Positions 1,107 through 62,437 of a DNA stretch of 64,000 bases are shown here, piece after piece (position 1 is the first letter of the stretch; each line of letters opens with the position of its first letter). Both the position numbers and the translations under genes were made by a program. The notes beneath the pieces were generated by a model, which worked only from the letters and a program-made list of their open reading frames with translations, did no database searches and was not told where the DNA came from. Origin of the DNA: Isoetes taiwanensis (Eukaryota > Streptophyta > Lycopodiopsida > Isoetales > Isoetaceae); contig JAJEKV010000052.1 in NCBI GenBank assembly GCA_021234155.1, positions 2,784,254 to 2,848,253 of the forward strand, written 5' to 3'.

Positions 1107-1222
1107 CAAGTATTGGTACAAGCATTGCATCAGACCATGTTCTTCTTATGGTCCATTGATTGTAACACCAAACATCCGAAAATAACTCCAGGAGAGAGAG
1201 TAGGAGAGAGAGTTCTGGTTAC
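1107..1222 (-). other. Exon-like block between TGCAG and GTGAGATC
   Basis: On minus this block starts after TGCAG (GTAACC) and ends in TTG before GTGAGATC. Equivalent blocks lie at 5854-5998, 29711-29819, 37091-37202, 42962-43095, 51937-52041 and 59932-60066, with conserved borders but divergent interiors. Several copies have stops in all three frames, so it is probably non-coding: an alternative exon or part of an intronic RNA. Confidence 0.5.
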
Positions 1223-1317
1223 CTGCACCCAAGCAATGACAAAGTTAGCATAAATTGGTAACTAGCCAAGGGGCGTCAGGTAAGCTATAGAACACTCTGG
1301 CTTATCGCCCTTCACCT
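1207..1317 (-). ncRNA. Conserved pseudoknot RNA element, copy 1
   Basis: On plus: AGAGAGTTCT (1207-1216), a hairpin GTTACC/GGTAAC, a stem AAGGGGCG/CGCCCTT with inner GTAAGC/GCTTAT, and the inner loop AGAACACTCT (1289-1298). The loop pairs 9 of 10 bases with 1207-1216, making a pseudoknot. On minus the block is bounded by TAG|GTGAAGG and TGCAG|GTAACC, like a 93-nt intron with a TGCTAA-type branch site. No ribozyme core was recognised. Confidence 0.6.
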
Positions 1318-2620
1318 ATTATTTTCAGCATTGTTAAATTATATTAACCCAATAGAGTCTCATGATTTCAGTAGGTTAATACAAGCTGACAAAACTCATT
1401 AACTAGTTGGTGGCCAATACCAATAGGGTATTCTACTTAAAGCCTACTAGTGATCAGAGTTGAGGAAAAACAACATATATAAGCCCTTGCAAAGCCTCAT
1501 TACAAAGCGAACCTCTTGCCTATGGCTGGCTGTCCAACTTAACCTGTGTACTTGAGATGAAATTCATGATTGTTGTGCCTTATTCCTTTTCAACAAGGTG
1601 GCACCGGATCATCATACAACCATCATATAACCATATAGTGCTGACTTACTTTGTAGACCTTTATATAAGCGGAACTAAATCAGCGAGCAACACACTTAGA
1701 CTAAGGACATCAGGTACAATGCAAGCCCCTGCACTGCAATGTAATCTAACCTACAGCATTTAACAACCTTAGCAAACTTGAGTATTTCTAAGCACTCCAC
1801 AACATAGACCTAGCAGCAGTCATGCAAAAACATGAGTATGAAGCCACCTACAATCCCAAGCCTAAAGCAAACCGATGTGCAACACTATGAACCCAACATC
1901 ATATGCAAAAGGCAAACACCAAATAAGAAAACAACTGACACAATCATGTAGCTACACAAACAAGGTATGCTGCACACAACCACTCAACCCTAATATGCCT
2001 GCTATTTTCCAACCTGCATGCCATACAGTACCGCTATATGCATGGTCTAACACAGCACTACAACATTGAAATAAGGCAACACTATTGTTTGCTTTTGCTT
2101 TTGAACAGATAATCATACATAATAGTTACAAGAACCTGAATGTGTTCGCTCCGCTTTTCTAGCAGTAACGCCAAGCTCCATTATGAATCTGTGTATCACG
2201 TCTGCTAAACTAGAGCCAGAAATGGCTATCGGTTTTGAGCCTACCACAGATAGATTATCATGAATATTGTTAGCTCTAAATCAATATTTAGAGGAAAGGA
2301 ACAGAGCACCAATGCCTTTGTTCAAGCCAAAACTTTACCTTGTATCAGATTAAATCGGCTTGTTTCTTCCATTTATGGCAATATTTTATCTAGATGTGGA
2401 TCATCATATCAACCAGCAAAGATTCGAAATGGCTTTTAGCAAATAGTTATGGCAACCTCGCAGCCAAATCGACAGCTTACTCCCCATTTTCATAACAGAG
2501 AACCCCTTAAAAAACCATGCATCGAAAGCTATCTGATACTATAGCTCTGCAATCAGGCATTTCCGATGCTGTTCATATCATTTGGTATCTGATGCTATCA
2601 TATCATTTCCGATGCTATCT

Positions 2621-2640
2621 GAGCGGCCATTTTGGCGCCA
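2621..2640. promoter_or_regulatory. E2F-like palindrome TTTTGGCGCC
   Basis: GCGGCCATTTTGGCGCC lies in the presumed 5' region of this element. Related sites lie at 50152-50170, 53313-53326, 58561-58573 and twice at 60834-60885. TTTGGCGC fits the E2F consensus TTTSSCGC. Binding is untested. Confidence 0.3.
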
Positions 2641-3424
2641 GATGCAGCCATAGCAGATGCCTTAGCAAAGCCACGAATAAAATTTTGCCCCAATATATTT
2701 TTGGCACCAACGTATGCCCTAAATTCAAGACCATTTAATTTTAATGCACAATTTTCTATCTTTGAAACTTTGTTGCCTTCATATACGTGCCACTCTTAGC
2801 CACTTTGCACATTTAATGCACCTTAGAGTATCATAAGAAGCAAATGAGCGCTTCCACCAAAGTGACATGCAATTGCAATTGCATGTTGCTCCACTTGCCT
2901 CACATGCATTTAAAGCAAATGCATGCATAAGATTAAAGGAAAAATCCCATAAGCTATATCTTTAGTTTATACAAAGGGCTAGCTTATTTACCATGTAGAG
3001 GCGTTTGTAAACAATAATGCCAAAGTGCCTTGATTTCCTTGCAATTTCTATCCATTGGAATTTTTTGCCTTCTTCTATGCAACATAAGCTATTTAGAGCG
3101 ATAGACCATTGTTGACTATTTTCAAATGTCTCATTTTCAGAAGTCCTTTATCCCATATTTTAAATGTGGAACCATATATTTCTTTGGAGGGTTTGAACCC
3201 CTACTTATTTTGTGATGCCATATAGGTTTAAATACACATCATTTATTTTCTTGCAATAGATGCACCAAATACCATAATAAGTGTAAAGGTTATGTGTGCA
3301 GGTCTTTTGCATTTTAAACCAGTGCTTCCACCAACCTAGGCACCATAGCTTGCCATGATGTCAAATAAATACATGTGTCGATTTCTTTTTCTCTTTCCAA
3401 TGATTTGAAGAATCAAAAGAGAAT

Positions 3425-3494
3425 TTCTTCTTCTTCTTCTTCTTCTTCTTCTTCTTCTTCTTCTTCTTCTTCTTCTTCTTCTTCTTCTTCTTCT
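3425..3494. repeat. (TTC)n microsatellite
   Basis: About 23 TTC units at an element boundary. The 60-base left flank is repeated left of the tract at 5331. Confidence 0.97.
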
Positions 3495-5330: not shown

Positions 5331-5550
5331 TTCTTCTTCTTCTTCTTCTTCTTCTTCTTCTTCTTCGAATTCTTCTTCTTCTTCTTCTTCTTCTTCTTCT
5401 TCTTCTTCTTCTTCTTCTTCTTCTTCTTCTTCTTCTTCTTCTTTCTTCTTCTTCTTCTTCTTCTTCTTCTTCTTCTTCTTCTTCTTCTTCTTCTTCTTCT
5501 TCTTCTTCTTCTTCTTCTTCTTCTTCTTCTTCTTCTTCTTCTTCTTCTTC
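5331..5550. repeat. (TTC)n microsatellite, longest in the window
   Basis: About 220 bases of TTC with small interruptions near 5366 (TTCGAATTC) and 5442. The right flank, GAATATGTTCTTACAAAG, is the A-family internal site. Confidence 0.97.
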
Positions 5551-5984
5551 GAATATGTTCTTACAAAGACTACGGTCAGATAATGTTAAAAAACATTTAA
5601 AAGCCTCGTTCAGAGTAAGGACATGTCTCCCAATATCTACCCTGGTGTTTTATGCCAGGCCACATCAGGTACTCCTACTTCCATTATCCCTTAATATAAT
5701 CAACATTTCACAATATAGCTTAAATTTAGATCTTATTGTAATATGTATAACATGTACTTAAACCTTTACTTGAAATAGTAATCATTCTTTATTTATTTAT
5801 CATGAAAAATATAATCGTTTTACAATATCAATTTGCCAATAGAAAGATCTCACCAAGTTCTTGCCATAAATCATATTCCTCTTCAATCTTTTTATAACTC
5901 TTTAACTCAGCAATTTTGATTCCAAATATTCCCATCTCTTTCGAGTTAACGACCACCCTAGAAACAAAATAGAGACAATTGGAG

Positions 5985-6107
5985 GAGAGAACCCGTACCT
6001 GCAGCCAATCAATACACAATTAGCATGATAATGGTAAATGTGCAAGGGCCAAAAGGTACATTGGGTCTCTCAGTTTATCACTGATCACCAATTGTATCCT
6101 TTTGCCC
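5985..6107 (-). ncRNA. Conserved pseudoknot RNA element, A1
   Basis: Same topology as copy 1 with different sequence: GAGAGAACCC (5985-5994) pairs with loop GGGTCTCTC (6063-6071). The main stem is AGGGC-CAAAAGGTA with TATCCTTTTGCCCT, and TACC/GGTA forms the side hairpin. Copies lie at 9653-9776, 13285-13408, 16737-16860 and 20359-20481; units 3 and 4 have lost the CTGCAG at the acceptor. The 5' border on minus is AG|GTCACC, weaker than the GTGAAGG of other families. Confidence 0.55.
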
Positions 6108-9187: not shown

Positions 9188-12100
9188 TAGATGTCACAGT
9201 TTCTTCTTCGAATATGTTCTTACAAAGACTACAGTCAGATAAGATAATGTTAAAAAACATTTAAAAGCCTGGATTCGGGTAAGGACATGTCTCCCAATAT
9301 CTACCACAATGTTTTATGCGGGGCCACATCAGGTACTCCTACTTCCATTATCCCTTAATATAATCAACATTTCACAATATAGCTTAAATTTAGATCTTAT
9401 TGTAATATGCATAACCTGTACTTAAACCTTTACTTGAAATAGTAATCATTCTTTATTTATTTATCATGAAAAATATAATCGTTTTACAGTATCAATTTAT
9501 CAATAGAAAGATCTCACCAAGTTCTTGCCATAAATCATATTCCTTCACGTCTTCAATCTTTTTATAACTCTTTAACTCAGCAATTTTAATTGCAAATATT
9601 CCCATCTCTTTCGAGTTAACGACCACCTAGAAACAAAATAGAACAATTGGAGGAGAGAACCCGTACCTGCAGCCAATCAATACACAATTAGCATGATAAT
9701 GGTAAATGTGCAAGGGCCAAAAGGTACATTGGGTCTCTCAGTTTATCACTGATCACCAATTGTATCCTTTTGCCCTGAGGTGACCTTAACTAGAAAGGAT
9801 TGGAATAGTAGCATATTTAGCATTATAATTTCTCAATTATCAATCATTCCCATTAGGCGAGAACTAATTTCTTAGTCCCAAATCCAAATTGGTCATGTTG
9901 ATAATTGTTCAATAGCATGATAATTTTTCTTACAACTTTAAAATTTTCAGGATGTAAAAATCAGATTTCATACTCTTCTTAATGTTTTAAACAAGATAAT
10001 ACTTAAAGCATTACACTTAAGTTATGCGATTCCATTTTTGCCTTTCAATAAACCAAGGCAGCAAAAAATCTAATGGAAACACAGAAATATGAAATATTTA
10101 GCTAGTCTAATCCATTTAGCAAATATCTTAATCATTTTAATCATGAAACAGTGAAGAACCTGATATTTGAAGTCTCGAGATAGGATACTCCAGAATAGGC
10201 ATACATCGTTGCCTAGAATGCCATCAAATAAATCTTTAAGCGCATTTCAAATTTTCCGGGCACCCATAATACATAGCATGCAACCATGTTTTAATCACCA
10301 ACATGATGGCGTGCGTATCATCCTCCACCTTAAAATGCATCACGTATTATAAAGGCGAAAAAAAAGTATATTTCAAGCTCATTTGCAAGCACATTATTTG
10401 TGTTCAAAGTTAGCATTACCACATCGATCTCAAAGTTAGCGGAAGAACTTGGCGAAGAGGCAAAATACCCTTTGGCGGTGCCATTTTCACCGCGGAGATG
10501 ACTCCATGCATGGGCGTATTTTGCTTCACAATCAATGCGGAAACCAAGATTTGGATCCCATAAATCTCATACTAATTTCCAATCCATAAATATCGGGAAT
10601 TTCAATAAGGAACTTACCAACAGAACTCTATTTTGAAGACATTGAAGCAATGAAAACCGAAGAAGGCGCTAGTATAGAAGCTCTTACAACATTAGCAAAT
10701 GTGTATAAATGGCTGGTTGTATTATCCTGCCCCCCTCAAGTATTATCCGGCCTAGACACCTATAGTAGTATCAATTACATTCCCCTTTGGTACTTTCGAT
10801 TCCTTTGGAAGAATCCAAATTCCCTCTTCTACATCGTCAAAAATACCATTATTCTAAATTAAATCAAATTATTAAGCTTATTTATTTAGAATAAAATTGG
10901 ATAGTAGGTCGATTAGGTATGTTGTGGACAAAAGCACTTTGTTTTGGCACCGGAACCAAAAGCAGTGATGCATGGAAGGGGGCGGTTTCTTCAAAGTAAA
11001 GTAAAATTGGATCTCTAATCATAGGTCGTCGGTAGGTTTCTTCGATCGGAGGGGCGGATAACTTGTTCTACCTCCGTCTGACGTACCGGCAAGATCATAA
11101 ACCATTTTTTTGAGACTGGCGACCATCAAAGTCACGTGAAAGCGGCTTCGCATGGCTATGACGGCGACCTTCTTTTTGGCCATAGCACGGCAAAACGAAC
11201 TTGGAAGTGCCATATAGAGCAAGCTACGACACTTTTTCATATACGGATGCGGCTCCATAAAGCCGTATTTCCGACCGCCCTACAACATATTTTTCAGCAT
11301 ACAAATGGCAACCCTTTTTCATAAAAGGTGCGCAAATCCAAACTTTTGATTCATCCCATAGTTAGAACCCGATAACATACTAAACCAAACCCTTTTTGCG
11401 AGAATCGGCCCATGCTATTTGTGGTCTTCTTTAGCTTTTAAGTCTCATGATCGCGGCTACATTAGCCATCGAGAACAACTCATCCATTATCACGAAACAA
11501 ACCCTAGGTTTAGGGCTATTTAACACTATATCGAAAATCAATGGTAATTTTAGCCCCAAAATATTTGGCGAGTATCCATTGAAACCTTATTACAAGAAAA
11601 ACCTTCATCATCTTTTCGATAAAATGCTTTATCAACCATTACAAGAAGCTTCCCCAAAGATATAAATGCTTGTCGCCACTTCTCCAAACATATAACGGCT
11701 TATGCTTATTGCCGCAACTACACCAAGCATATAAAGGATTTTGCCATACTTTGCTTTTGTAGACAATTTGGTTTTTTATAGCATACAAGCTATTAAAAAG
11801 CACATCCTAGATCGTAAGATGATTTTTCATGGGGTCCACATTTAACATAAGGGTTTCAAACTTTGTAATAATAAACCTTCTCTTTGATTAAATATAGTCC
11901 AAAATCATTTTTGTATCACCACTGGGATATGCACGTCACTTATAAAACCTTTATACCCCATATAATATTTCGTATCCATGCTTCTCACAAAATAGCAAAA
12001 GTAAAGCTCTAGTGTTTTTGTACACAAGAACCATTGAGGTAAAATATTTTAGTTGTATCCACTTCTGAGGTAAAATGTTCTACCCCCATAACTTCATCTC

Positions 12101-12405: not shown

Positions 12406-15400
12406 CCCACATCCCTCCCTCAGGATGTAGGACACCACTTTTATAAGGAAAGTAGGACACACCCCTTATAAAGAGGGGTCCTACTTCCTTATCACAAGAA
12501 AGCGGTTAATGCATGAGATATTGATATTTTGAAATTTAGATTATTGGGTACATTGGCCTCTAATCTCTATGCCATGGCACTATGGACCAAAGGTCTTTTA
12601 TAATCTTAATATGTAAATGCGGCCTGATTGGAGCCATACATACCATGGATAGCGGATATATGCATTATGTCATTTCATAGGCTATGGACCATTTTACCAT
12701 AAGATATGGTAGCGAAACCATTCAACTGTAATAGAACATAATATCAGTTAGTAATGCTAGATCCAAATAAGGAATCAACATTATTTAATGGTTTTGGAAA
12801 TGATGTGTTTCCTGAATACCTCCAGCAAATAGATGTCACAGTTTCTTCTTCGAATATGTTCTTACAAAGACTACGGTCAGATAATGTTAAAAAACATTTA
12901 AAAGCCTCGTTCAGAGTAAGGACATGTCTCCCAATATCTACCCCGTGTTTTATGCCGCCACATCAGTACTCCTACTTCCATTATCCCTTAATATAATCAA
13001 CATTTCACAATATAGCTTAAATTTAGATCTTATTGTAATATGTATAACATGTACTTAAACCTTTACTTGAAATAGTAATCATTCTTTATTTATTTATCAT
13101 GAAAAATATAATCGTTTTACAATATCAATTTGCCAATAGAAAGATCTCACCAAGTTCTTGCCATAAATCATATTCCTCTTCAATCTTTTTATAACTCTTT
13201 AACTTCGACAATTTTGATTCCAAATATTCCCATCTCTTTTCGAAGTTAACGACCACCCTAGAAACAAAATAGAGACAATTGGAGGAGAGAACCCGCACTG
13301 CGACCAATCAATACACAATTAGCATGATAATGGTAAATGTAAAAAAAGGGCCAAGGTACATTGGGTCTCTCAGTTTATCACCGATCACCAATTGTATCCT
13401 TTTGCCCCCCAGGTGACCTTAACTAGAAAGGATTGGAATAGTAGCATATTTAGCATTATAATTTCTCAATTATCAATCATTCCCATTAGACGAACTAATT
13501 TCTTAGTCCCAAATCCACCGGTCATGTTGATAATTGTTCAATAGCATGATAATTTTCTTACAACTTTAAATTTTAGGATGTAAAAATCGATTTCATACTC
13601 TTCTTAATGTTTTAAACAAGATAATACTTTGCGCATACATTTAAGTTATGCGATTCCATTTTTGCCTTTCAATAAACCAAGGCAGCAAAAAATCTAATGG
13701 AAACACAGAAATATGAAATATTTAGCTAGTCTAATCCATTTAGCAAATATCTTAATCATTTTAATCATGAAACAATGAAGAACCTGATATTTGAAGTCTC
13801 CAGATAGGATACTCCAGAATAGGCATACATCGTTGCCTAGAATGCCATCAAATAAATCTTTTAAGCGATTTCAAAGATTTTCCAGGAGCCATAATACATA
13901 GCATGCAACCATGTTTTAATCACCAGCAGATGACGTGCGTATCATCCTCCACCTTAAAATGCATCTGTATTATAAGGCAGAAACAGAAAGTATATATTTC
14001 AAGCTCATTTGCAAGCCTGTTATTTGTGTTCAAAGTTAGCATTACCACATCGATCTCAAAGTTAGCGAGAAGAACTTGGCGAAGAGGCAAAATACCCTTT
14101 GGCGATTGCCATTTCGCGGGGAGATGACTCCATGCATGGAACTGTATTTTGCTTCACAATCTGTCTGGAAACCAAGATTTGGATCCCATAAATCTCATAC
14201 TAATTTCGAAATCCATAAATATCAGGAATTTCAATAAGGAACTTACCAACAGAACTCTATTTTGAAGACATTGAAGCAATGAAAACCAAAGAAAGTTAGT
14301 ATAGAAGCTCTTTCCACAGACATAGCAAATAGTTTGTATTATTACACCTATAGTAGACAAGATCATAAACCATTTTTTTGAGCTACAGAGCAGATCCAAC
14401 AAAAGTGCATGGGAAGGGGGCCGGTCGTATGCAACTTTTTGGCCATAGCACGGCAAAAGGGGCTTGGGCCTGCCATATAGCGCCAGCATCCCGCATACCG
14501 CAAAGATCATAAACCATTTTTTGAGACCTGGCAGCCATCAAAGTCCTGTGAAGCAGCTTCATGGCTATGACGACAACCTTCTTTTTGGCCATAGCCTGGC
14601 AAAACGAACTTGGAAGTGCCATATAGAGCAAGCTTACTTACACCATATCCGGATCGCCCATAAAAGCCGGTTTTCAAAGAAATGGATCCTACAACATATT
14701 TTTCGGCTACAAATGGCAACCCTTTTCATAAGAGGTCTGCAAATCCAAACTTTTGATTCTAAATCCTAGGAACCGACATACTAGGCGACCTTTTGGCAAG
14801 AATCATTACCATGCTATTTGTGGTCTTCTTTAGCTTTTAGGCAGATGCGGCTACATTAGCCATCCAGAACAACTCATCCATTATACAGAAGCAAACCCTA
14901 GGTTTAGGGCTATTTAGGGCATATCGAAAATCAATGGTAATTTTAGCCCCAAAATATTTGGCAGAGTATCCATTGAAACCTTATTACAAGAAAAAACCTT
15001 CATCATCTTTTTCGATAAAATGCTTTATCAACCATTACAAGAAGCTTCCCCTAAGCATATAAGGGCTTGTCGCCACTTCTCCAAGCATATAACGGCTTAT
15101 GCTTATTGCCGCAACTACACCAAGCATATAAAGGATTTTGCCATACTTTGCTTTTTGTAGACAATTTGGTTTTTGCCATACAAGCTATTAAAAAGCACAT
15201 CCTAGATCGTAAGATGATTTTTCATGGGGTCCACATTTAACATAAGGGTTTCAAACTTTGTAATAATAAACCTTCTCTTTGATTAAATATAGTCCAAAAT
15301 CATTTTTGTATCACCACTGGGATATGCACGTCACTTATAAAACCTTTATACCCCATATAATATTTCGTATCCATGCTTCTCACAAAATAGCAAGTAAAGC

Positions 15401-42198: not shown

Positions 42199-43079
42199 GT
42201 TAGCATCTGTAATACATACACCGAATTATGAATTATGAATTGACAATTTAAGGATAAGCTATGTCTTGTTGGACTTGTCCAACAAAAAGGAAGTCACAAT
42301 TTCTTCTTATTTACAGTTCACATCTAGATTTACACAATATAATGTACAATTTACAATTACAATGCTCCATTCAAGATGCAAACCAAACCCAAAATATCCT
42401 TCCTGGCTTTTACCCCAGGCCATAGCTAAGGGACTTCCTTAAATTGCCATCACCTTGAGTACATCATACGTTTTCCACTATTTTTCTTAATTCGCTATGA
42501 TATTATGGCCCATTAACAACTACAATTTCATATCTCATACCTAAAGCTTATGTATTCTCCGTGTTGCAATCCACTATACTCCTATTATGTACAATACAAA
42601 TTTCCATTCTCAACAAATATTCAGCTGTATTTCCAACTTTATTTCTTTTCTTTGTTTACATTGAAAAGTCATCTTTCCATTCATAATGCATCAAATACAC
42701 ATTCTTTCAAAACCAAAACCTTTTACATTTTTTCGTATCACTGTTTACATACTCAATTATAAAATATAGCAAGTTTATTTTCATATCAAAGATCCATCTT
42801 ATTTCTGTTTTAATGTCATAAATCAAAATTCACTATTTGTGACTTCAAACACCTTGCACATATCTGTTTTACAGCAAAACAATAGCTCAAAGATTCTATC
42901 ACTCTTATCCATTTCCACAATCGTAATAAATCCTTAGAAAGTTATTTGGAATAATCTCACCAAGCTTTGTGTAGGCAGCGCCATAGAATTTCTTCAATTG
43001 AAGTAGACATTCAGCATTCTACTTCATCTTTTTGTAGCCCAATGCGTGCTACACCTAAACCTTGACAAAAGAATAGGAG

Positions 43080-43190
43080 AAGATGTCCTGGTTACCTGCA
43101 CCCAAACAGACCAATATTAGCATGAAAATGGTAATAAGGAAAGGGGCGTCAGGTAAGCTAAAGAACATCTTGGCTTATCGCCCTTCACCT
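43080..43190 (-). ncRNA. Conserved pseudoknot RNA element, D1
   Basis: AAGATGT (43080-43086) pairs with loop ACATCTT (43165-43171); stem AAGGG(G)CG/CGCCCTT; inner GTAAGC/GCTTAT; side hairpin TTACC/GGTAA. Borders 43188 and 43096, 93 nt, with TGCTAAT branch-like site. D2 copy at 46123-46232. Confidence 0.65.
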
Positions 43191-43811
43191 ACTTTTGGCA
43201 AAGTTTCTGGCAGATTTTAAGCCATGTATTATGTTAGCTCAAAAGAAACCATCTTATTTATAATATTTTCAAGCTGACTATGGTTGCTTACCACAACCGC
43301 TAGTAGATCAGTTCTTATCATGTATTAATCTAAAAGAATCATCATTAATCAGAAACATACACTTGGTTTTAACCGCCAAATACCGTACAGCAGCCATGCC
43401 ATGGAGATGTCTTAAACCTTTTGTAATATTCCCAGTTTTTCAGCTTTCCATATGCTCTATTACTAGCATACTTAAAAATCAGAAATTGACAAACTGGTAC
43501 ACAGATAATGACAATGGCCTTGCCACAGTACCATTAAACAACAAGCAGCCAAACTAGGCTAAGAATATACTCTATTCATCAGATTTTCTGTTCTAAGTTA
43601 AGCTTGCCTATGCATTTAAACAAAACATCCCTTGAAGAAACTAAACTTCAGCCATAGAAAGCTCTAAATCTGTTTCTTATGTTGCAAGCCAGAACTGATT
43701 CCAGTTATACTAGCAACCTCTACTTCATTTTGCATCTGGATTCATACCAACACATATTTTTTCATCCAAAAAATATCAAGAACTCTGACCTGATGGGCGC
43801 CTCCCTGAGAA

Positions 43812-51080: not shown

Positions 51081-51211
51081 TCTTCTTCTTCTTCTTCTTC
51101 TTCTTCTTCTTCTTCTTCTTCTTCTTCTTCTTCTTCTTCTTCTTCTTCTTCTTCTTCTTCTTCTTCTTCTTCTTCTTCTTCTTCTTCTTCTTCTTCTTCT
51201 TCTTCTTCTTC
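51081..51211. repeat. (TTC)n microsatellite
   Basis: About 43 uninterrupted TTC units. Confidence 0.97.
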
Positions 51212-52025
51212 GTACATGTTCTTACTAAGACTACAGTCATATTAAAGAAAAATTTACATGCTTCGTTCATAGTAAGCACATATTCTCCTATATCTACCCC
51301 GGGTTTTTACATCGGGCCACAACAGGTACTCCTACTCCCAATAATAATAATCATCTCAGACTTATAAATGTATATGGTATCGGAAAGCATTTGGCATATT
51401 TTTTACTTTGAAAGCATTTGGCATATTTTTCGAAAAGGAAGACAGGATCAGTTTATGTTTCATCATTTAAATATTTGGATTTAAGTCTACAGTACTTCAA
51501 TCATATCATATGTGTAGATATCCCATGTTCAATTTAATATCTGCACTTATACATTAAATGATTTCAATCCGGTCATATGAAAAGTGAAGTCAGCAACAAG
51601 TCTTTAATTTTCATCAAGTTTATCATTTATATTATTTGCTTAACTATATCCAATTAATTCTACATTTTCAGAGTTACCATGAGTATCAGGAATGAAAGAA
51701 AAATTTTCATGCTTTGCATTTACACAAGGATTACATACTTTGAAGCAATTGAGGTTGCTGGCATCATTCATGGATGCTGGACTCTGGAATCTGAGATTAA
51801 TCTCATTCTGATCATATATAGTTCCTAGAATATTGCAATTAATCTAGAAAGCAAACATTGTGCCCAGCTAGTTAAAGAACTTGTTGTATTTAACCTTTTC
51901 TGCTAGAACATCCTTTCTTAAGAGGAATGATCTCACCAAGTGCAGATATAACCATTGTATTACGACCAAGTTCTTCTCCTGGTCCACCATTTGAACTAAA
52001 CACCAACCGAAAATAAATCCAGGAG

Positions 52026-52137
52026 GGAGAGTTCTGGTTACCTGCACCCAAACAGTGACAAAGTTAGCAACATATTGGTAACTAGCCAAGGGGCGTCAGG
52101 TAAGCAGTAGAACACTCCGGCTTATCGCCCTTCACCT
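52026..52137 (-). ncRNA. Conserved pseudoknot RNA element, C-family short element
   Basis: GGAGAGTTCT (52026-52035) with loop AGAACACTCC (52109-52118), nine of ten pairs; GTTA and GGTAAC side hairpin; AAGGG(G)CG/CGCCCTT; GTAAGC/GCTTAT. Predicted intron borders 52135 and 52042, 94 nt. Confidence 0.65.
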
Positions 52138-53112
52138 ATTATTTTCAACCAACCAATCATAATTATAACCCACTGGAGCCACAAATATATCAGCAGGTTA
52201 ATGTAGGTTGTTTAAACTCAAATCCAAGCTAATGCCATACACTAATATGGTGCATAGTTTTAAAGGCAGCTAGATAACTGAGTTAAGTAAGAAAGCACAA
52301 TATTACATGTGAAGCTCCACCAATATCTGTAACCCAATATCAGTATAGTGCAATAAACAATTTTTATCAGGTTAATAGCACATTTAAGGGTACATAGAGG
52401 AGCAGCAACTATCACAGCCATGCAAATATCATGGGTAACATCAAAGGATAAAGGGAAGAAGATAAATATGGTTTCCCTTGTGTCCACCATCTATGTAGAT
52501 ACCAAATAATAGTAAATATACTAAGAGTTTCAGATCTGAGATTTATTCCTTATTGAGTATTTGAGAAAAGGATTCGGATCGGATGGCATGCATCCGCACA
52601 GTTACACCTCCTTGGAGGCACTTAGAGATCCGCCCATTAGATTCCACTGGCATGAGTATGAGCAGAAAAAAGCAACGGCAAAAAGAGTAAAACAGAGTAG
52701 CTCAAACCACTACATCTTATCCTAGTTGCAGCCAGCACATTATCATAACTATATGAAAAGCACTCTATGTTTAGAGCCCAATCACTTAGATCTATATTCA
52801 CCGCCTAATATAGCAGCCAGCACTAATTTACCATCTCATAGGCTGTAATCTCTTTTAAGAATGATAAAGCACGAAATTAAATAGATTGATCCCAGAAAAC
52901 AGTCCAAACTATGTGACATATGCAGCATAAATTACAACCACTATTTTTGTAAAAAGGAAGCATATATCAGACCTGGACCATTAACTATTTTTTTGGCAAA
53001 CGTCCTTATTATGGAAGGTGAGCCATAAATAGAGCAAGCAGCCTCATCGGATCAAATATTTCCACTCTTATGTTTGAGTCGACTAATTAGAAAGTTAAGG
53101 TTTTAAATATAC

Positions 53113-53271
53113 CTGATTGGGAGATCCACGCCTCCCATTGCCTTGTACAACTCCGGTATTGTTGGATTTCCGGTTAAAACTGTTCTTGTCCAGCCTTCTT
53201 GCAGGAAACCCACCAGAGCTCGATCCCTTTGCCTTTTTTCCGGGGCCACGATCATACACTCCCTTAGGCAT
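53113..53271 (-). CDS. MPKGVY first exon, C-family short element
   Basis: 53 codons, MPKGVYDRGPGKKAKG to RRGSPNQ, ending CAG|GTATAT (phase 0). It is rich in Lys, Arg, Gly, Ser and Asn. A TTTGGCGC site lies about 45 bases upstream on minus. The first 30 codons recur at 58429-58518 in the adjacent autonomous element. No ORF1 follows in this element, so it would splice elsewhere or be a relic. Confidence 0.6.
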
Positions 53272-53890: not shown

Positions 53891-54050
53891 TTCTTCTTCT
53901 TCTTCTTCTTCTTCTTCTTCTTCTTCTTCTTCTTCTTCTTCTTCTTCTTCTTCTTCTTCTTCTTCTTCTTCTTCTTCTTCTTCTTCTTCTTCTTCTTCTT
54001 CTTCTTCTTCTTCTTCTTCTTCTTCTTCTTCTTCTTCTTCTTCTTCTTCT
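53891..54050. repeat. (TTC)n microsatellite at the C element 3' end
   Basis: About 53 pure TTC units between the tail of the C element and a CCTCCTCCTCC-bearing 5' end. Confidence 0.97.
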
Positions 54051-54142
54051 CCCACATCCCTCCCTCGGGAAGTAGGGCCCTTCATTTTATAAGGGGCAGT
54101 AGGTAGGACCCCCCTATAAAAGGAGGGGTCCCACTACCCTAC
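54051..54142 (-). other. 3' tail box and hairpin of the C element
   Basis: CCCACATCCCTCCCTCGGG box, then GTAGGTAGGACCCC/GGGGTCCCACTACCCTAC arms around CCTATAAAAGGA. It starts about 33 bases after the reverse transcriptase stop on minus. Confidence 0.75.
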
Positions 54143-54174
54143 ACAGAAGACATATCTGCCAGCTAACAGAAACA

Positions 54175-56241
54175 CTAAACTTTAATTTCATTGATATTGT
54201 AGCACAAACCTGGAAATGTGTTATCAGATAACAACCTTCTTACGCAAGCCACCAGGTCGTTATGCATGAATCCATTACTTACAAACTCATGTATCAGTAT
54301 CTCCAAGTCCTCATTAGCTCTAATCGGACTTGTGTTGACATATAGAATTGGTAACACCTGTGACAGGATGACTCTACTGGCATTTAGGTATGGGCGGCAG
54401 CTAGAGGCATGAATAAATTTCATTACTGGAAACGGTAATTTGTCCCTTTTGTCATACTTATAAGTAGTAAATAATCCAGTAGAGGGCTCTATTACTTCAA
54501 TGGTAACATTTAAAAAATTACCACAGCACCCAATCTTACCCAAACCATTGTCCGTTGATGGGTATTGGGTCTCATCCTTAATCTGTAGCATATCCAGGTT
54601 ATACACATTGCAACATTCTGAGCTATTCTTACCCTCCTGGAAATATATAGAAAGGTCCCCACCATTGGGAATACAAAGGTCATCGATGTATCTTCTAGCA
54701 TCCTTAAATCTTATAATCTCTTGAAATCTGCCAAGGGTAGCAAGTCTTTCAATGTGTTTCATCTCAAAGAATGACAGATACAGATTACACCATTCAGGAG
54801 AACAGGCAAATCCCATTGGGATACCACAAGCCTGCCTCCAAACACCATCCCCTTGTACCACATAGCAGTTATTAAGGAGCCATACATTAAGCTCACAAAA
54901 TTCAGCTTTATTTAAGTAGTGCCATGAACTGCCGGACTGTTTTTTGCTATCCCAGGTATATACTATGTCATCCTCCAAAATTCTATAGCCCAGCAGTACT
55001 TCCTTTCCATGACTGGACATATAATCAATAGCAATACCGATAACTTCTGTTATAATGGCACATATCCCATCCTTTCCCTGCAGTGGAATGTTCTCATAGC
55101 ATTTGGAAATATCAGCAGTAAAAATGCTTGAAATTTTATTGGGAAGATTCAACATGAATTCATACACGGAATTAACAATCCAATAAGGATTAACCTTTCC
55201 AGGTAGTAGTACGCTGACTTTCTCTAGTCTTTTCATGTATGCCTTAGGAAGGACTTCAGTCAACCCTCTTAATCCTCTGGTGATTATTTTGGCGGGAAGC
55301 GTAAAAATGGTCTGATGGGCATTAGTGATCCAACGATATTCTCCTTTGTGAGCCTTAAACATTCCCAGAATATACGGCAACCTATCATTGTATGGGCATT
55401 CCAACTGGAATCCATTCATTAGGTCTAAGTTGATTTTTTGTAAGACCTTATCCCTGTTATCAGAACATTTATTGAAATCTTTACCATGCAATCTCTCACG
55501 CGCCATGTCCCTGATATGCCAAGGGCATATGAATGAGGGTACATTAGCCGCTTTGTCAACCGAGGAAATGTAAAGGTTACGAACCAGCCAGCTGAGACAT
55601 GCTTTTACCTTAAAATTCCCCATGGAATGGTGCCTCCTAGTGGAATTTCTAATTGCAGACATGGCTTTATTTTTGATAAATGCCAGAAGACCAATCTTGA
55701 TGCTGCTAACTTCATAAGGATGTATATTGATTCCATTTTTCTCAAAACCTTTAAACAGAACACAAATCTCTTCCTTCACGTCTTCCATAAACCTATGTAT
55801 GTTTAATGGTCTGTCCGGAATAAAATTCAGACCTTTACGGAACATGTTTCTTAATTCTCTGGATTTGATTATGGACAAATCCATTGTTCTGACATGGCCA
55901 ATTTTGGGGTCAATGAACTTATGCATCCCAGGCATGTGGCAGATACACTTTGGTATTTCTGTAGCAGCAAATACCCTATAGGGTTTGTAGACTAGATCAA
56001 TAAGTGGACTGTCATATATCCACCCAATGCATGTATTTTGCATGATATGGGTGCCAAAGTCCCCAAGTCTCATGAATAAATATTCCTTGATGGTCTCTCT
56101 TAAACTGATGTCATCAATAACTTTAGAGGAATAACGAAAATGTACTCTCACCTTTTTGGTTTCAGTACCACCTTTTTTGGACAATATTCTTCTCCCACTA
56201 GGTCCAATAATGATAATCCGTTTGCCCTCCGTTTCTTCCAT
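54175..56241 (-). CDS. Reverse transcriptase of the C element, intact
   Basis: 688 residues if it starts at Met 31 of the open frame, just after the acceptor AATTCAG|ATGGAAG; the 30 codons before look intronic. Numbering from the longer frame: a Cys/His segment CICHMPGMHKF (129-139) then GHVRTMDLSI; DKAANVPSFICPWH (259-272); RWITNAHQTIFTLPAK (333-348); motif A TADISKCYENIP (405-416, Asp407); motif B GIPMGFACSPEWCN (503-516); motif C YIDD (548-551); YKYDKRDKLPFP (624-635) in the thumb region. It should copy RNA into DNA. The KAHK, IPMG and DKAAN-type blocks resemble the Penelope-like group more than LTR, LINE or group II enzymes. No GIY-YIG or other endonuclease is visible. Confidence 0.88.
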   Translation of the reverse strand: MEETEGKRIIIIGPSGRRILSKKGGTETKKVRVHFRYSSKVIDDISLRETIKEYLFMRLGDFGTHIMQNTCIGWIYDSPLIDLVYKPYRVFAATEIPKCICHMPGMHKFIDPKIGHVRTMDLSIIKSRELRNMFRKGLNFIPDRPLNIHRFMEDVKEEICVLFKGFEKNGINIHPYEVSSIKIGLLAFIKNKAMSAIRNSTRRHHSMGNFKVKACLSWLVRNLYISSVDKAANVPSFICPWHIRDMARERLHGKDFNKCSDNRDKVLQKINLDLMNGFQLECPYNDRLPYILGMFKAHKGEYRWITNAHQTIFTLPAKIITRGLRGLTEVLPKAYMKRLEKVSVLLPGKVNPYWIVNSVYEFMLNLPNKISSIFTADISKCYENIPLQGKDGICAIITEVIGIAIDYMSSHGKEVLLGYRILEDDIVYTWDSKKQSGSSWHYLNKAEFCELNVWLLNNCYVVQGDGVWRQACGIPMGFACSPEWCNLYLSFFEMKHIERLATLGRFQEIIRFKDARRYIDDLCIPNGGDLSIYFQEGKNSSECCNVYNLDMLQIKDETQYPSTDNGLGKIGCCGNFLNVTIEVIEPSTGLFTTYKYDKRDKLPFPVMKFIHASSCRPYLNASRVILSQVLPILYVNTSPIRANEDLEILIHEFVSNGFMHNDLVACVRRLLSDNTFPGLCYNINEIKV

Positions 56242-56721
56242 CTGAATTATTAGTTTATAATCAGTATGCATCCATTTATGCATAACAGTTAAACTTAAAA
56301 AAGATGGAGTGTACAGGAGATATATACACACTAGAATTTTTAAATTATGTCCAGCACCTAGAATGATGCACGATCAATACCATCAATCCAACACATAATT
56401 TTGGAACATTTTCAAAATCCATGAGTCTGTGTTGAAATATGAGATATATTCCAAAATTGGCTTTACAAGCCTTAAACTTCTGCCCCATGATAATGAAGAC
56501 AGGCATTTACAGATATAATGACTGATATAGTTGGAAAATACAGCCATATTATATGGAAACTACATACGCGTATCATTAATCTATCATGAAGAGCATGATG
56601 CTCTGAAAAAAGGACTGCAACCATGGTGCCAGCCCATAACCTGCATAAGCAGATATATGCTAAATTAGTACATTGGACTAATTTAGTAACATGTGGATCA
56701 TTCAAACATACCCACCGAGTC
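56242..56721 (-). other. Spacer between ORF1 and reverse transcriptase, C element
   Basis: 480 bases without a long frame. A GGTGG|GTATGT donor-like site lies about ten bases after the ORF1 stop and the AATTCAG acceptor directly before the polymerase, so this may be an intron in a two-cistron transcript. Confidence 0.45.
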
Positions 56722-58227
56722 TCAGTAGGTCAAACGTGCCTGCTTGACATTTTCAGTCACATACGTGTCGCTTGGTCTAGGGCCCTTACAGACCGATGCT
56801 TCATCATTGTTGTTGGTACACGCAACATTAGATTCTGAGTAGTCAGCGATATTTTCAATAACTTGGCAACTAGAGCTAGCACTCATTCTACTGACCCTGG
56901 GTGGCAGAAAGTCATCATGCCTACCACTGGAGTGCTGCGTTGGAATTGAAGCAGTATGTTCTTCAACCACAATGTTGTGTTTTTTCAGTAAGAATGCACG
57001 GTCTTTGATCATCATTTCACAAACATTAACTAACTTGGTATTGCCAAGTACAGCCTGCACATTACAATCAGGGTCAACAGCAAGTTTGTTTGTAACCCTG
57101 ATCATCATATCGCGAACTTGCAGGTAAACTAGATGTGCCATAACAGGTTTTTTGAGCTTCTGCTGAATGAAGTTCAGAAAGGCACCCATTCTTCCTGCTG
57201 GTGAGTATCTGGGATACACCATATCCAAGTGATTAAATGCAAACCATATGGCTTGATCTAGCCATGTGATTGTATCCTTGCAAGAGGAGTCAGTGCAATT
57301 GCACTTAAAATACGGACTAAATGATCTCCAGATTCGATGTAGGTAGTTGTTTTCTCTTTTTATGATTGGGTAGGCCATATGTGCCTTCACAAATAGTGTT
57401 ATTCCAGTATTGTTGTGACATTGTTTGTCAAAGAGTGCAGTACCAAATGGAAACTCCACTTCCTCCTTGTCCCCTATCTTGATCAAATTTCTAGCAGCAT
57501 CATCAATTTCCAATAACTGAGCATTATTCAAACCTGCAATCATTATCCAAGCCTGTGTGCTTATGGGAGCTAGAGTACTGAAATTTTGGCTACGCCATAG
57601 TCCATGATCAAATTCCTCCCCGAGCCATTCAATGGCCATCTCAGATATTATTGGGAATCTTAGACAATTGTGCAGGGTTAATCTGACCATATTTTCACCC
57701 ATGTTTTCATTTATCACCGGCAGTCCATCATCCCCATCAGTTTTCATGATCTCCAGGTCCTCTTGGGGAATGAACTTTGTGAAACCAGGAGTTGTTCCAT
57801 CAGAGGTACTGTTATCAGCAGAATTCATATCATCATTGAAGGTTTTGTCCTTATCTTTCACTTTGTTGACTCTTTCTAGATAAGACACCCCTGCCTTGCA
57901 CTCAATTGCAAGCATATCGTCCAGGTCAGTACGATCTGCTAGGATATTGGGCATGTCACTAAACATTTGCTGTAATATCATTTCACACTCCTTAGTCTTC
58001 ATGCCCAGTCCATCCATTTTTAGGAACAGGTCCAGCCATGCGCTGAAACCTAAATATATGACTGGAGAATAGGACTCTTGAGGTAGTTTGCTGTTTAGCT
58101 TCAGGATTACCTCATGTATTTCCGGATTGGGGATGAGGCACAGAAGATATTGCACTGCTCTGTTAGGAGCTCGTCCTACAGCCCCATAACCCAAATCAGC
58201 CAAATGCTTGATCCAGATCCCCTTATG
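56722..58227 (-). CDS. ORF1 of the C element, conserved protein of unknown fold
   Basis: 501 residues from the acceptor AATACAG|CATAAGG (phase 0, HKGIWIKHLADLGYGAVG) to a TGA stop. Blocks shared with the B copy: CLIPN-x-EIH, LGFSAW, ILADRTDLDDMLA, FIPQEDLEIM, RFPIISEMAIEWLGEEF, LWRSQNFSTLAPIS, GITLFVKAHM, LHRIWRSFSPYFKC, CNCTDSSCKDTITWLDQAIW, VYPR and VRDMMI. Length and block order are kept while linkers diverge, which indicates selection on the protein. The Cys cluster might bind zinc. I cannot assign a domain. Gene order (ORF1, then polymerase) suggests a structural or RNA-binding role in retrotransposition. Confidence 0.85.
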   Translation of the reverse strand, partial: HKGIWIKHLADLGYGAVGRAPNRAVQYLLCLIPNPEIHEVILKLNSKLPQESYSPVIYLGFSAWLDLFLKMDGLGMKTKECEMILQQMFSDMPNILADRTDLDDMLAIECKAGVSYLERVNKVKDKDKTFNDDMNSADNSTSDGTTPGFTKFIPQEDLEIMKTDGDDGLPVINENMGENMVRLTLHNCLRFPIISEMAIEWLGEEFDHGLWRSQNFSTLAPISTQAWIMIAGLNNAQLLEIDDAARNLIKIGDKEEVEFPFGTALFDKQCHNNTGITLFVKAHMAYPIIKRENNYLHRIWRSFSPYFKCNCTDSSCKDTITWLDQAIWFAFNHLDMVYPRYSPAGRMGAFLNFIQQKLKKPVMAHLVYLQVRDMMIRVTNKLAVDPDCNVQAVLGNTKLVNVCEMMIKDRAFLLKKHNIVVEEHTASIPTQHSSGRHDDFLPPRVSRMSASSSCQVIENIADYSESNVACTNNNDEASVCKGPRPSDTYVTENVKQARLTY

Positions 58228-58364
58228 CTGTATTAAACACATTTAAATGAAAAATAAGTGGTTAGAACAGCAAAATCTCAATTATCACCAGCAAGTTATA
58301 CATACTAAGTGACTATGGAAACATATCCAATCATTTAGTTATATCAGTTTCAGAAATGTTGCGT

Positions 58365-58384: not shown

Positions 58385-58428
58385 GTAGATGTCAAAGTTT
58401 CTTCTTCGATGATGTTCTTACTAAGACT

Positions 58429-58518
58429 GTTCTTGTCCAGCCTTCTTGCAGGAAACCCACCAGAGCTCGATCCCTTTGCCTTTTTTCCGGGGCCACGATC
58501 ATACACTCCCTTAGGCAT
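58429..58518 (-). pseudogene. Truncated MPKGVY exon of the C element
   Basis: The first 30 codons match 53182-53271 (MPKGVYDRGPGKKAKG to LDKN), then the sequence jumps to AGTCTTAGTAAGAACATC, the flank of the internal GAA site. The exon donor is lost. The fused frame continues through the H-hairpin for about 25 codons before a stop. Confidence 0.75.
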
Positions 58519-59339: not shown

Positions 59340-60050
59340 CTATAAGGCAACCATCAGCAAGATTAGTATACCTGGTAAAATGCAACCAATATATTAAGGA
59401 ATGACTGTGTTTGTTAGATAGCTCCAACAAAAGGAAGTCCCAATTTCTTCTTATTCATATTTACATCAAAACTTCACATTATTTTGTTTAATAACAGAAA
59501 TATTGTTCCATATATGATGTAAACGTTTCATTAATATCCTTCCTAGTTATGCACTAGGCCACAGTCTATGGTACAATGTACCACCTTAATATATTAGGAA
59601 ATTTATTTTTTCAGCTTTAAATAGAGTCTTATTCATGTATTCAGTTTAAAGACAAAAAGAGAAGTAAGATTTAATCATAAAAAACAGACCATTATATGTG
59701 ATTTCATCATAAAGAGTACAAAGGTTGATTATCTCAAGAAAGACTATAATTATTTTATGAATGTCAAGTCATCATTTCTGAAATATAACAGATAAGGAGC
59801 ATATAACAGCAAAATTCTCAAGCTTTTATGTAAAAAATCAGACCATTACATATGAATACCAAATCCTTGTTTTATGCTGATTGAGTCTATGTAGATAATT
59901 TCCTTAAACTTTCAAATCTGAAGGATCTCACCATAGTGTCTCATAAGGTTCTAAACTTCTCATAGCACCATTTAATGCCTGTTCTTCGTACACGGCCCAA
60001 AATGCCATAGCATAATGACCTTTGACAATACAAAAGAGAACTCCAAGGAG

Positions 60051-60163
60051 AAGATATCTGGGTTACCTGCATCCAACCAATATACTAGTTAGCAATAATC
60101 TTGGTAATAGTATAAGGGATGACAGGTAAGCAGTTAGATATCTTGGCTCTTCGCCCTTCACCT
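60051..60163 (-). ncRNA. Conserved pseudoknot RNA element, 60-kb element
   Basis: AAGATATCT (60051-60059) with loop AGATATCTT (60136-60144), nine pairs. Stem AAGGG(A)TG/CGCCCTT keeps pairing through a U-G wobble where others have C-G. The inner stem is reduced to AGC/GCT. Borders 60161 and 60067, 95 nt. Confidence 0.65.
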
Positions 60164-60833
60164 AGAGATTCCCAAAGTATTATGGGTCAATATAATAGTG
60201 AAGTATGCAAAAAGACAATAGGTATTTCAAAAAAAATGAAAAGCATATAGTATTGGCTGTTTACTACAGCCTTCTGAATCTGGATTCCCATCAATAATAT
60301 GTGACAGCCAGAAGTATAGAACATGTAGTCTAATAATCAAATAGTTCATTAATCTTGATTTTGGTAGCAACAAACATTATTTTCCAAATAAAAAGCAAAC
60401 ATAAGCTTAAGAACCATCAATATTGTATTTTGTGGAAGATATCTTAGTTATGAACAAATATTCTTCATGTTATTGAAGCAAGACAATACTAACGGTAACC
60501 TCAAACCTGTTATAAAGCTCAACACATCATAAGCTGACCTGAATAGTTTCGCTCCAGATTAAGACTTCATGTTGTATTTGTTTCGTTCATACTTTTATGG
60601 TGAAGCATCTCCATGCATTGGTCCAGCTTCAGACAACAAAGGCATCATTTGTATCAACGCCATCCTTTGGCTTCTTGTCTGCACTGTATCAAATAGGCTT
60701 CTTTGATGGAAGATCTCAAAACCCTCAAAGAATCAAACCCATCATGTATTTTCATGTGTATCACAGCAGGATAGAATCGTCCAAGTACTATCGGCCATGA
60801 TTCATACAGCATGTTGCATCAAGCAGATTTTTC

Positions 60834-60885
60834 AGGCGGCAACTTGGGCGCCAAACTACAGGCGGCAACTTGGGCGCCAAACTAC
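60834..60885. repeat. 26-base tandem duplication with TTTGGCGCC
   Basis: Two exact copies of a unit containing GGCGGCAACTTGGGCGCCAA. Each carries, on minus, TTTGGCGCC, so the duplication doubles the E2F-like site. Confidence 0.85.
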
Positions 60886-61479
60886 AGAGTCTCCACAATA
60901 ACTTGGCTTTTAGGTTATCCGTTTCAAACCCTTAACCTATTTCTTGGTATCTTACCTTATATTCGCAACCGCTTCCTTATCCCATGCCATAATGGTGACA
61001 TAATTACCATCGGCCATATGAAACAAAGAAAAGGCATTTGCCTATGTAAAGTCTCAATCAATTAATTTATTCATATCTACGGCTTCAAAGGACCGAATCA
61101 TAAGCATATAAGGTACTAGACCCAATAGAAACTTTATAGGTTGACACAATTTATTATTACCACAACTTTCAAAAACCTAAGTGCTTTTGCACATAGCATA
61201 TCATTAAATTCTATGTGTAGCAATAAATGCTAGATCATGAGATAAAATAACGTACCTTTAGTGAAAAAGATTTTGTCACATCTCCATTTGGTAGATATTC
61301 ATTTGGCTTTGGCCCATCAAATACATTGTAAAAGATAGCTTGAATATTTTCCTTCATTTTCTTTCCCATAACTCATATTTATCCATATTAGTCCATATAA
61401 ACTTCCATAAATCCTTCATCATTAGAAATTTAACATATGATAAATTCACAACTAAAGCATTTTTCAAACATACCAGATT

Positions 61480-61609
61480 ATTCTTCTTCTTCTTCTTCTT
61501 CTTCTTCTTCTTCTTCTTCTTCTTCTTCTTCTTCTTCTTCTTCTTCTTCTTCTTCTTCTTCTTCTTCTTCTTCTTCTTCTTCTTCTTCTTCTTCTTCTTC
61601 TTCTTCTTC
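61480..61609. repeat. (TTC)n microsatellite
   Basis: About 43 pure TTC units. Confidence 0.97.
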
Positions 61610-62330
61610 ACATTTACATCTAGATTTACACTACAATTGCATAAATACAAACTTATAGCTCCATTCAAGATGTAAATTATCCCATTCATATCCATCAAGG
61701 GTAAAACCCAAGCCACAGCTGAAAGGTAACCTTTACATGGTTGGAGATATGAATATGTCTAGCAGAGTAATATAATTAGTATAGCTTTTGCCTTTAAACA
61801 TGATGCATAAAATCAGACCATCATTTTAGAACACAGAATTCAGAATTTCAGAAAATACGAGTTTTAAAGTTAAACATGAGGTCACATAATTTCCAAATAA
61901 GTGCATCTTATATCTTTATCTCATGTAAGTTTCAGAATTTCAAAACATAGTATTCAGAATTCCAATATCGAGTAATTTCATTCTTATCAAATCAAGTATT
62001 ATATTGTAAATCATATCCAAGTTCAAGATGTAAACATATCTATAACAGCTCAAAATGTAGATGTAAACGCATATTATATGACCATAGTAGACCTTCAGAA
62101 TCAATCAAAACAGCATATACTTGTCCTATAATAACGTTAGCTATTTTCCAAGCTCTATACTTGCATTACATGTTTTTCTCTGACTATGTTCTTGTACATA
62201 TCAGAAACTAGGTAGATCTCACCACATTTTGCCGGAAATCGAAATTAGTTGAGCCCGATTTCCATGTAATATCTTCAATTTTAGTTGCCTTCATGTTTTT
62301 GCAACCTTGTAACTTTGAAAAGACAGAGAT

Positions 62331-62437
62331 ATAGAGTCTCTTACACCGCACCCAAACGTACCAATATTAGCATAAACATGGTAATAAGGAAAGGGCGTCG
62401 TAAGCAATGAGACACTATGGCTCTTCGCCCTTCACCT
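62331..62437 (-). ncRNA. Conserved pseudoknot RNA element, 62-kb element
   Basis: ATAGAGTCTC (62331-62340) with loop GAGACACTAT (62409-62418), nine of ten pairs. The acceptor TGCAG|GTAACC is changed to TGCGGTGTAAG, so the predicted 3' splice site is lost or misread while the pseudoknot pairing is kept. Confidence 0.6.

Follow-up and report, generated by a model that had tools for sequence, protein, structure and literature searches.

A covarying, nested RNA fold in the first ORF1 intron of apparently Penelope-like retroelements of Isoetes taiwanensis

Much of a 64,000-nucleotide (nt) stretch of Isoetes taiwanensis DNA (assembly GCA_021234155.1, contig JAJEKV010000052.1, positions 2,784,254 to 2,848,253; the whole stretch is called the window here) consists of minus-strand-coded retroelements in tandem head-to-tail arrays. 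A block of about 120 nt recurs in these elements, which appear to be Penelope-like, and two of its strands differ between element families while remaining able to pair. What RNA does this block form, and what could it do for the elements that carry it? We find that the block folds as a nested stem under strong selection for pairing and that, judging by the reading frames around it, it lies in the first intron of open reading frame 1 (ORF1). We tentatively favor a reading in which this RNA domain acts in cis, retaining or marking the unspliced transcript as the template for reverse transcription, although we give this somewhat less than an even chance.

A nested stem under selection for pairing

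We searched the window with a covariance model built from 10 of the 15 loci found; two more of these loci are identical to one of the 10. All 15 block copies lie on the minus strand, with E values of 1.7e-33 to 1.8e-15, and the next matches had E values of 0.36 or worse.

52019-52138, minus strand: RNA block, copy E (representative); 5' strand of P0 at about 52138-52135, side hairpin at 52129-52119
52118-52109 and 52035-52026, minus strand: 5' strand (c) and 3' strand (c') of P1 in copy E, with P2, P2b and P3 between them
1200-1318, minus strand: block copy at 1.2 kb (E = 6.6e-33)
5978-6091, minus strand: block copy, family A (E = 1.5e-25)
9646-9759, minus strand: block copy, family A, repeating the block of 5978
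13278-13391, minus strand: block copy, family A, decayed (E = 6e-17)
16730-16843, minus strand: block copy, family A, decayed (E = 1.8e-15)
20352-20465, minus strand: block copy, family A, repeating the block of 5978
25418-25533, minus strand: block copy, A-like; homology to A stops within the block, with family B reverse transcriptase (RT) sequence from there
29797-29917, minus strand: block copy, family B
37180-37299, minus strand: block copy, family B
43073-43191, minus strand: block copy, family D
46116-46233, minus strand: block copy, family D
48235-48347, minus strand: block copy, A-like
60044-60164, minus strand: block copy F (60 kb)
62323-62438, minus strand: block copy H (62 kb), in which the AG of TGCAG is lost

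The fold is a three-way junction that joins P0 (TAGG/CCTA and beyond), a GNNNA side hairpin and a long stem, P1-P2-P2b, capped by the apical hairpin P3. P1 is the c/c' pairing. The side hairpin reads GGC-GAUAA or GAAGA-GCC, and CAGU-GAUAA-ACUG in family A. P2 is UUACCUG/CAGGUAA, P2b is CGCCC/GGGUG, CGUCC/GGAUG or CAUCC/GGAUG, and P3 holds the motif TGCTAAY. The minus-strand consensus of 10 aligned window copies contains 26 nested pairs, 12 of them with at least one double change. Across this consensus, 95.3% of cells are paired and 31 are doubly changed, compared with 10.8 in column shuffles, and the signal collapses when the partners are slid. Seven copies folded better than their dinucleotide shuffles (z of -2.1 to -4.3), whereas four neighboring stretches did not (-0.3 to +1.7).

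In the 1.66-Gb genome, four block queries gave 1001, 615, 472 and 2052 first-look candidates, with 40 scored per query. The set examined holds 118 copies (90 distinct): 13 come from the window and 105 are matches at 104 loci. The window copies at 9646 and 20352 were not counted again, loci L001, L009, L010 and L079 were excluded as being window copies, and the set leaves out the family A genome places (the query with 2052 candidates) and part of the places of the other three queries. In a set of 75 genome matches from 75 loci (56 distinct), whose alignment was fitted to the model, double changes occur in 15 of 36 pairs.

The original prediction had taken the c/c' pairing as strong evidence for a working RNA structure. 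All seven c'/c strand pairs that it quoted were located where it had placed them, and the evidence for P1 proved far above the tree-aware background. Among the 10 window sequences, P1 has 21 doubly changed cells, a count reached by 0 of 1000 tree-aware nulls in each of two modes. In an independent MAFFT alignment of the 90 distinct copies, it reaches 290 doubly changed cells, with 21-22 compensatory branch events. For comparison, the same substitutions were redistributed on the same tree, 300 times each in a uniform and a rate-matched mode. The null means were 0.8 and 1.5 events, respectively, and 0 of 300 reached the observed number in either mode. P0, the side hairpin, P2b and P3 show one or two such events each and P2 none; P2 is nearly invariant on both strands, whereas P1 varies freely. 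An R-scape-like per-pair test of covariation, which has little power with 10 window copies, counts against it: E fell below 0.05 in only 2 of 26 pairs when testing was confined to the structure and in none when all column pairs were considered.

The same prediction had drawn the block as a pseudoknot, and this topology did not hold, since the covarying pairs nest. Neither a/a' (AAGGG/CCCTT) nor b shows a compensatory change among the 10 or the 90 copies, with 0 doubly changed cells in a/a', and their strands overlap covarying nested helices (the side hairpin and P2b). Nevertheless, a/a' is 92.7% paired in the 90 copies, a level that none of 300 uniform nulls reached, compared with 8 of 300 when rates were matched. 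As a/a' is conserved though never compensated, an extra or alternative AAGGG/CCCUU contact may exist.

The block had also been placed in every element family. Its 15 copies do span the A, B, D, E, F and H types, but the element at 54-59 kb lost it by deletion, partial copies at 3.6 and 23.9 kb have a second conserved hairpin (see below) without the block, and A-family copies lack a/a'. The deletion in the 54-59 kb element (58399-58437, minus strand) removed the end of exon 1 together with the block, so that exon 1 abuts an internal GAA site directly. In the copy at 25418-25533, the 5' end lies in the side hairpin and is fused to family B RT sequence, possibly through a template jump at the three-way junction.

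The expectation that the RNA belongs to no known family was confirmed: an Rfam search of the whole window at gathering thresholds returned 0 matches. Three permissive Rfam scans (copy E, copy A at 6 kb, and copy E through to the GAA site) gave only sub-threshold, unrelated families with E values of 1.1 or worse. No covariance model for hammerhead, HDV, twister, pistol or any other Rfam ribozyme matched in the window search or these scans. Nor is such an RNA described in the titles and abstract openings covered by our literature searches, which lay largely outside subscription journals. With 118 copies examined and between 472 and 2052 first-look candidates for each query in a single genome, the block would represent a family of structured RNAs that has no match in Rfam.

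The RNA strand, intron position and splice-like motifs

The original prediction read the block as a plus-strand RNA, and here the evidence favors the minus strand. On the minus strand, the nested helices (P0, side hairpin, P1, P2, P2b and P3) of the 90 distinct copies contain 218 G-U cells versus 18 A-C cells. P1 alone has 25 versus 4, and at one position of P2b the pair is G-U in 73 of 90 copies (GT in 73, AT in 10). Read as plus, these G-U pairs would become A-C mismatches. The sense sequence has more G than C, so part of the G-U excess may be composition. The exons, the branch point and the RT are all on the minus strand. The RNAalifold consensus energy is slightly lower on the plus than on the minus strand (-20.3 versus -17.9). 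We dropped the folding energy of individual copies as strand evidence: the sense strand folded more stably in all 11 window copies tested and in 85 of the 90 distinct ones, yet a flanking control gave the same 85 of 90, indicating that this asymmetry is composition. The RNA strand is most likely the minus, coding (sense) strand.

These data bear on two other accounts of the block. We consider it improbable that the block is an antisense, plus-strand RNA with the pseudoknotted order c'-(hairpin)-a-b-c-b-a, even though AAGGG/CCCTT is conserved beyond what the nested fold needs, the consensus energy leans slightly to the plus strand and antisense templates are among the proposals made for Penelope-like elements (PMC3846280). 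Such an RNA would not account for the lack of compensation in a/a' and b, for family A, where a/a' is missing, or for the wobble pairs and coding features of the minus strand. Least probable of all, and very unlikely in our judgment, is that the complementarity belongs to the DNA, as an inverted repeat serving recombination or a promoter, or that it drifted passively in recently amplified repeats. Conversion can also maintain complementarity, and many of the copies seem young (among the A places, 22 of 40 scored are identical). However, the tree-aware null does not produce the observed pattern, tolerated G-U pairs and the conserved G-U of P2b point to RNA, and the four neighboring stretches fold no better than chance.

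Where does the RNA lie with respect to the coding sequence? ORF1 opens with a small exon 1 that ends in CAG/GT (slashes in such motifs mark candidate splice junctions), and exon 2 follows a putative acceptor.

53113-53271, minus strand: ORF1 exon 1 (MPKGVY...) of element E, followed by CAG/GTATAT
31026-31193, minus strand: ORF1 exon 1 of family B, with a second copy at 38407-38574
34936-36423, minus strand: ORF1 exon 2 of family B
56722-58227, minus strand: ORF1 exon 2 of the 54-59 kb element, with the putative acceptor ...TTTAATACAG/CATAAG

In the two element types checked, B (SEPKQ/RTNWTKY) and E with the 54-59 kb element (GSPNQ/HKGIWIK), splicing exon 1 to exon 2 would give a phase-0 junction. 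The block sits between them, about 1 kb past exon 1. Its predicted position is thus the first intron of ORF1. Among nine genome matches to one joined exon 1-exon 2 query, none was an intron-lost copy, each match being one-sided. In this small sample of partial matches, the absence of spliced copies is in line with unspliced templates.

The block itself holds splice-like motifs. The branch-point motif TGCTAAY, in P3, is present in 88 of the 90 distinct copies, and the 3'-splice-site motif TGCAG/GT, in P2, in 78 of 90. The branch A lies 21-22 nt from the AG in all 77 copies measured. A 5'-splice-like sequence, GGTGAGATC, follows 66-140 nt past the block with at most one mismatch in 114 of 118 copies (exact in 96).

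51929-51937, minus strand: GGTGAGATC of copy E, 5'-splice-like, downstream of the block
1099, 5846, 9510, 13143, 16598, 20220, 29704, 37085, 59924 and 62215, minus strand: GGTGAGATC elsewhere
42953 and 45998, minus strand: variant GGTGAGATT in place of GGTGAGATC

At the level of motifs, a branch point, a 3' splice site and a 5' splice site thus stand at exon distance, and would bound a candidate exon. From the AG to GTGAG, this stretch measures 94-163 nt (74 distinct stretches). The lengths of the 74 candidate exons divide 25/25/24 modulo 3, so that taken together they do not appear to be coding. An open frame runs through 31 of the 74, whereas 200 shuffles gave 16.5 on average and 29 at most, the copies being related. 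P2 is nearly invariant, as if a splice signal were pinning one of its strands.

Two other arrangements were considered. A mini-intron, GTGAAG...TGCAG, within a coding exon was rejected, as the flanking frames are not conserved by eye and the lengths of the exon are spread evenly modulo 3. A bistable pairing of the UUACC of P3 with the 3' splice site fared no better: the forced alternative was 8.5-16.5 kcal/mol worse in six copies, and in copy H the forced fold equaled the free fold, the constraint being without effect. A simple two-state switch is not supported.

A possible role in template choice

The elements provide an apparent start site for reverse transcription in the same intron. Two main kinds of GAA tail occur in the window, one after the 3' untranslated region (UTR) motif GAGGGAGGG.TGTGGG and one after an intronic motif, TAAGAACAT... 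or, in other families, GATGTAAAT-like. At this internal site, full units have few GAA repeats and the sequence continues.

51083-51224, minus strand: internal site TAAGAACATGTAC plus (GAA)43, where copy E seems to end
5331-5563, minus strand: internal site with its GAA tract, at the low-coordinate end of the A array
53891-54066, minus strand: the other 3' end type, 3' UTR motif GAGGGAGGGATGTGGGA plus (GAA)53
51294-51321, minus strand: second conserved intronic hairpin (TGTGGCC plus stem) of copy E, upstream of the internal GAA site
590-617, 5637-5664, 29235-29259, 59538-59563 and others, minus strand: second hairpin in other copies

In the window, the internal site appears to be the end of eight copies, one of which has an AGG tract, and at least six others continue past it. 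For each of the 118 copies, 174-1600 nt of downstream DNA were examined for tails. The first GAA tract followed the internal-site signature in 28 copies, the 3' UTR signature in 14 and neither in 8; the remaining 68 had none in the DNA examined. The 28, out of 50 copies with a GAA tract, were assigned by pattern, and one of them (L060, 319 nt from the block) is doubtful by eye. Apart from L060, the block lies 426-820 nt from the internal-site tract. Among the 28, two tracts run to the end of the examined DNA, and in several copies the tract is followed by more GAA-like repeats or by the end of that DNA.

The second hairpin consists of TGTGGCC, a stem (CUGG...CCAG, CUAG...CUAG or CUGAU...AUCAG) and GGGTAG/GGATGG. 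In many copies it stands about 110-120 nt before the internal-site GAA tract, and by eye the changes in its stem are compensatory.

The tracts that follow the internal site or the 3' UTR (5331-5550, 51083-51211, 53891-54049 and others; minus strand) reach about 73 GAA repeats, and the internal site of read-through units has about three. The long tracts could stem from insertion into GAA arrays or from repeats added in a telomerase-like manner on a short GAA template.

PAc, a Penelope-like element of the anole, offers a precedent. Its reverse transcription was shown biochemically in vitro to start inside its own RNA, the first 172 nt of its ORF being required and its hammerhead not needed for insertion (PMC11167929). 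The elements here resemble PAc in their tandem copies and, by sequence pattern, in genomic copies that end at an internal site, as if reverse transcription had started inside the RNA. Unlike the PAc ORF region with its AC-rich stem loop, the fold here is intronic, lies 0.4-0.8 kb before the GAA site and has splice motifs embedded in it. The apparent start site is GAA, in contrast to the AC-rich loop of PAc, and the tracts likewise consist of GAA.

In the reading that we favor, a particle of RT and ORF1 protein would bind the block, probably together with the second hairpin downstream, and reverse transcription would begin at the internal GAA site as in PAc. With both domain and start site intronic and the splice signals sequestered, only unspliced transcripts would act as template. 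The block would then behave like the PAc RNA-binding region, or like a packaging signal that is missing from spliced RNA. The persistence of the intron, and the retention of the domain in derivatives without long frames, would follow from a template that must be unspliced. Pointing toward this reading are the covariation, the G-U excess on the sense strand, the phase-0 intron position, the lack of an intron-lost copy, the block's presence in families A and D, and the internal-site ends.

Several observations weigh against a template-marking role. The internal site is farther from the block than in PAc, and at least one other conserved hairpin is nearer to it and could be the true recognition element. 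Neither of the two partial copies (3.6 and 23.9 kb) carries the block, yet both end at the internal site, which means that the block need not stay in the copied part. The tracts could instead reflect insertion into old GAA arrays, or repeat growth in a copy that reads on, and the splice-like motifs are not required by such a role. Finally, the RVT_1 profile matched four of five RT proteins from the window and relatives (best E = 4e-5) without giving a class assignment, and an AlphaFold model of the RT was unusable (mean predicted local distance difference test score of 36).

Control of splicing alone would do nearly as well. It is possible, though on balance doubtful, that the stem governs a non-coding cassette exon of the poison or decoy kind. 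An open stem would allow inclusion of the 94-163-nt exon up to GGTGAGATC, wrecking ORF1; a closed stem would lead to exon skipping or intron retention; and junctions would be expected at TGCAG/GTAAC and TG/GTGAGATC. The frequency of all three motifs, the constant branch-to-AG spacing and the non-coding spread of exon lengths are what such a switch predicts, as is a nearly invariant P2 beside a variable P1. It does not predict copy H, which retains the fold but lost the AG, and a purely non-coding exon has no need of open frames in excess of every shuffle. The conserved TTACC opposite the branch point, with its C-C mismatch, is also unaccounted for. Self-cleavage, at which the original prediction had hinted, fares worse. 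A new ribozyme cutting tandem transcripts, where other Penelope-like elements carry a hammerhead, would suit the block's place in the repeated 5' part of tandem elements, its three-way junction with conserved unpaired residues (GGUGA and the GAUAA/GAAGA loops) and the homology of copy 25418 that stops inside the block. However, no Rfam ribozyme matches. Upstream homology to the other copies stops within 450 nt in 24 of the 118, and the places where it breaks off show no common position, ranging from within the block to 393 nt upstream of it; this is a weak test that depends on which partner copies were compared. With the PAc hammerhead dispensable for insertion in vitro as well, we regard a ribozyme as unlikely, only a little less so than the antisense pseudoknot.

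Other known RNAs help to place the fold. The hammerhead core motif is CUGANGA/GAAA. Like the hammerheads of Penelope-like elements, the block is a folded RNA in the 5' portion (pLTR) that is repeated in tandem elements; unlike them, it has no Rfam hammerhead match, no hammerhead core in its junction and no clustering of break points. R2 retrotransposons have a 5' pseudoknot and 3' UTR RNAs that act in cis and are bound by the retroelement protein; the abstract of an R2Tg study mentions a pseudoknotted RNA. The block is likewise a cis-acting fold of a retroelement, but it is nested, intronic and built around splice motifs, and protein binding is here a supposition. The packaging signal of retroviruses lies downstream of the splice donor. 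An intronic fold that marks unspliced RNA as the genome would follow the same logic, by analogy only and with no shared family.

Template marking and splicing control could also be combined. One intronic fold may hide a complete decoy exon and at the same time mark the unspliced transcript for the element's own RT, making it a packaging-signal-like device outside retroviruses. We think this dual role rather unlikely, but if true it would explain how Penelope-like elements keep introns. These elements take their introns through an RNA stage, and an earlier report left open whether the template is unspliced sense or antisense RNA (PMC3846280). A covarying intronic fold over splice motifs, upstream of the apparent start, brings the template question within reach of a test that needs two proteins and a 120-nt RNA.

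Host elements and genomic setting

Beside the three arrays listed here, the window holds further elements, such as E (52 kb), F (60 kb), H (62 kb) and the 54-59 kb element, the last flanked by a 716-nt repeat.

5.5-23.7 kb, minus strand: A units, about 3.65 kb each, head-to-tail array
25.5-41.6 kb, minus strand: B units, about 7.39 kb each, head-to-tail array
41.7-47.7 kb, minus strand: D units, about 3.04 kb each, head-to-tail array
54175-56373, minus strand: RT open frame with motifs ADISKCYENIP, GIPMGFACSP and YIDD

The host elements are probably Penelope-like retroelements, although the RT matches the RVT_1 profile only weakly. The traits that point this way are tandem or partial-tandem copies with repeated flanks (pLTR), seen in the A, B and D arrays and the 716-nt repeat, spliceosomal introns apparently kept in the genomic element, and insertions that, by their pattern, end at an internal RNA site. 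The RT frame at 54175-56373 has weak RVT_1 similarity, its own score falling below the gathering score, and a protein search found four distant homologues at 32-33% identity. A profile search found no PDB relative of the RT, and no Pfam match to a GIY-YIG endonuclease was found in the RT or ORF1 frames scanned. This endonuclease is missing from some Penelope-like clades. The ORF1 proteins of the 54-59 kb element and family B (56722-58242 and 34936-36423; minus strand) have no Pfam match better than E = 0.06, and a protein search limited to relatives sharing short words found no ORF1 homologue at E = 1e-3. A search with the RT protein found no relatives in a viral contig collection, and one block pattern found none in viral contig and genome contig collections.

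Past the RT stop, the 3' UTR (31960-32080 and 54050-54175; minus strand) carries a motif of its own that looks rich in hairpins, GTAGGGTAGTRGGACCC...GGGTCC, and closes with GAGGG.GGG.TGTGGG plus GAA. No ORF exceeds 142 amino acids in family A or reaches 120 in family D, and both families keep the block. Of the 2052 first-look genome candidates for the family A block, 40 were scored; 22 are identical over 140 nt, on 12 contigs, with two of them in the window. Despite having no long ORFs, family A looks recently active.

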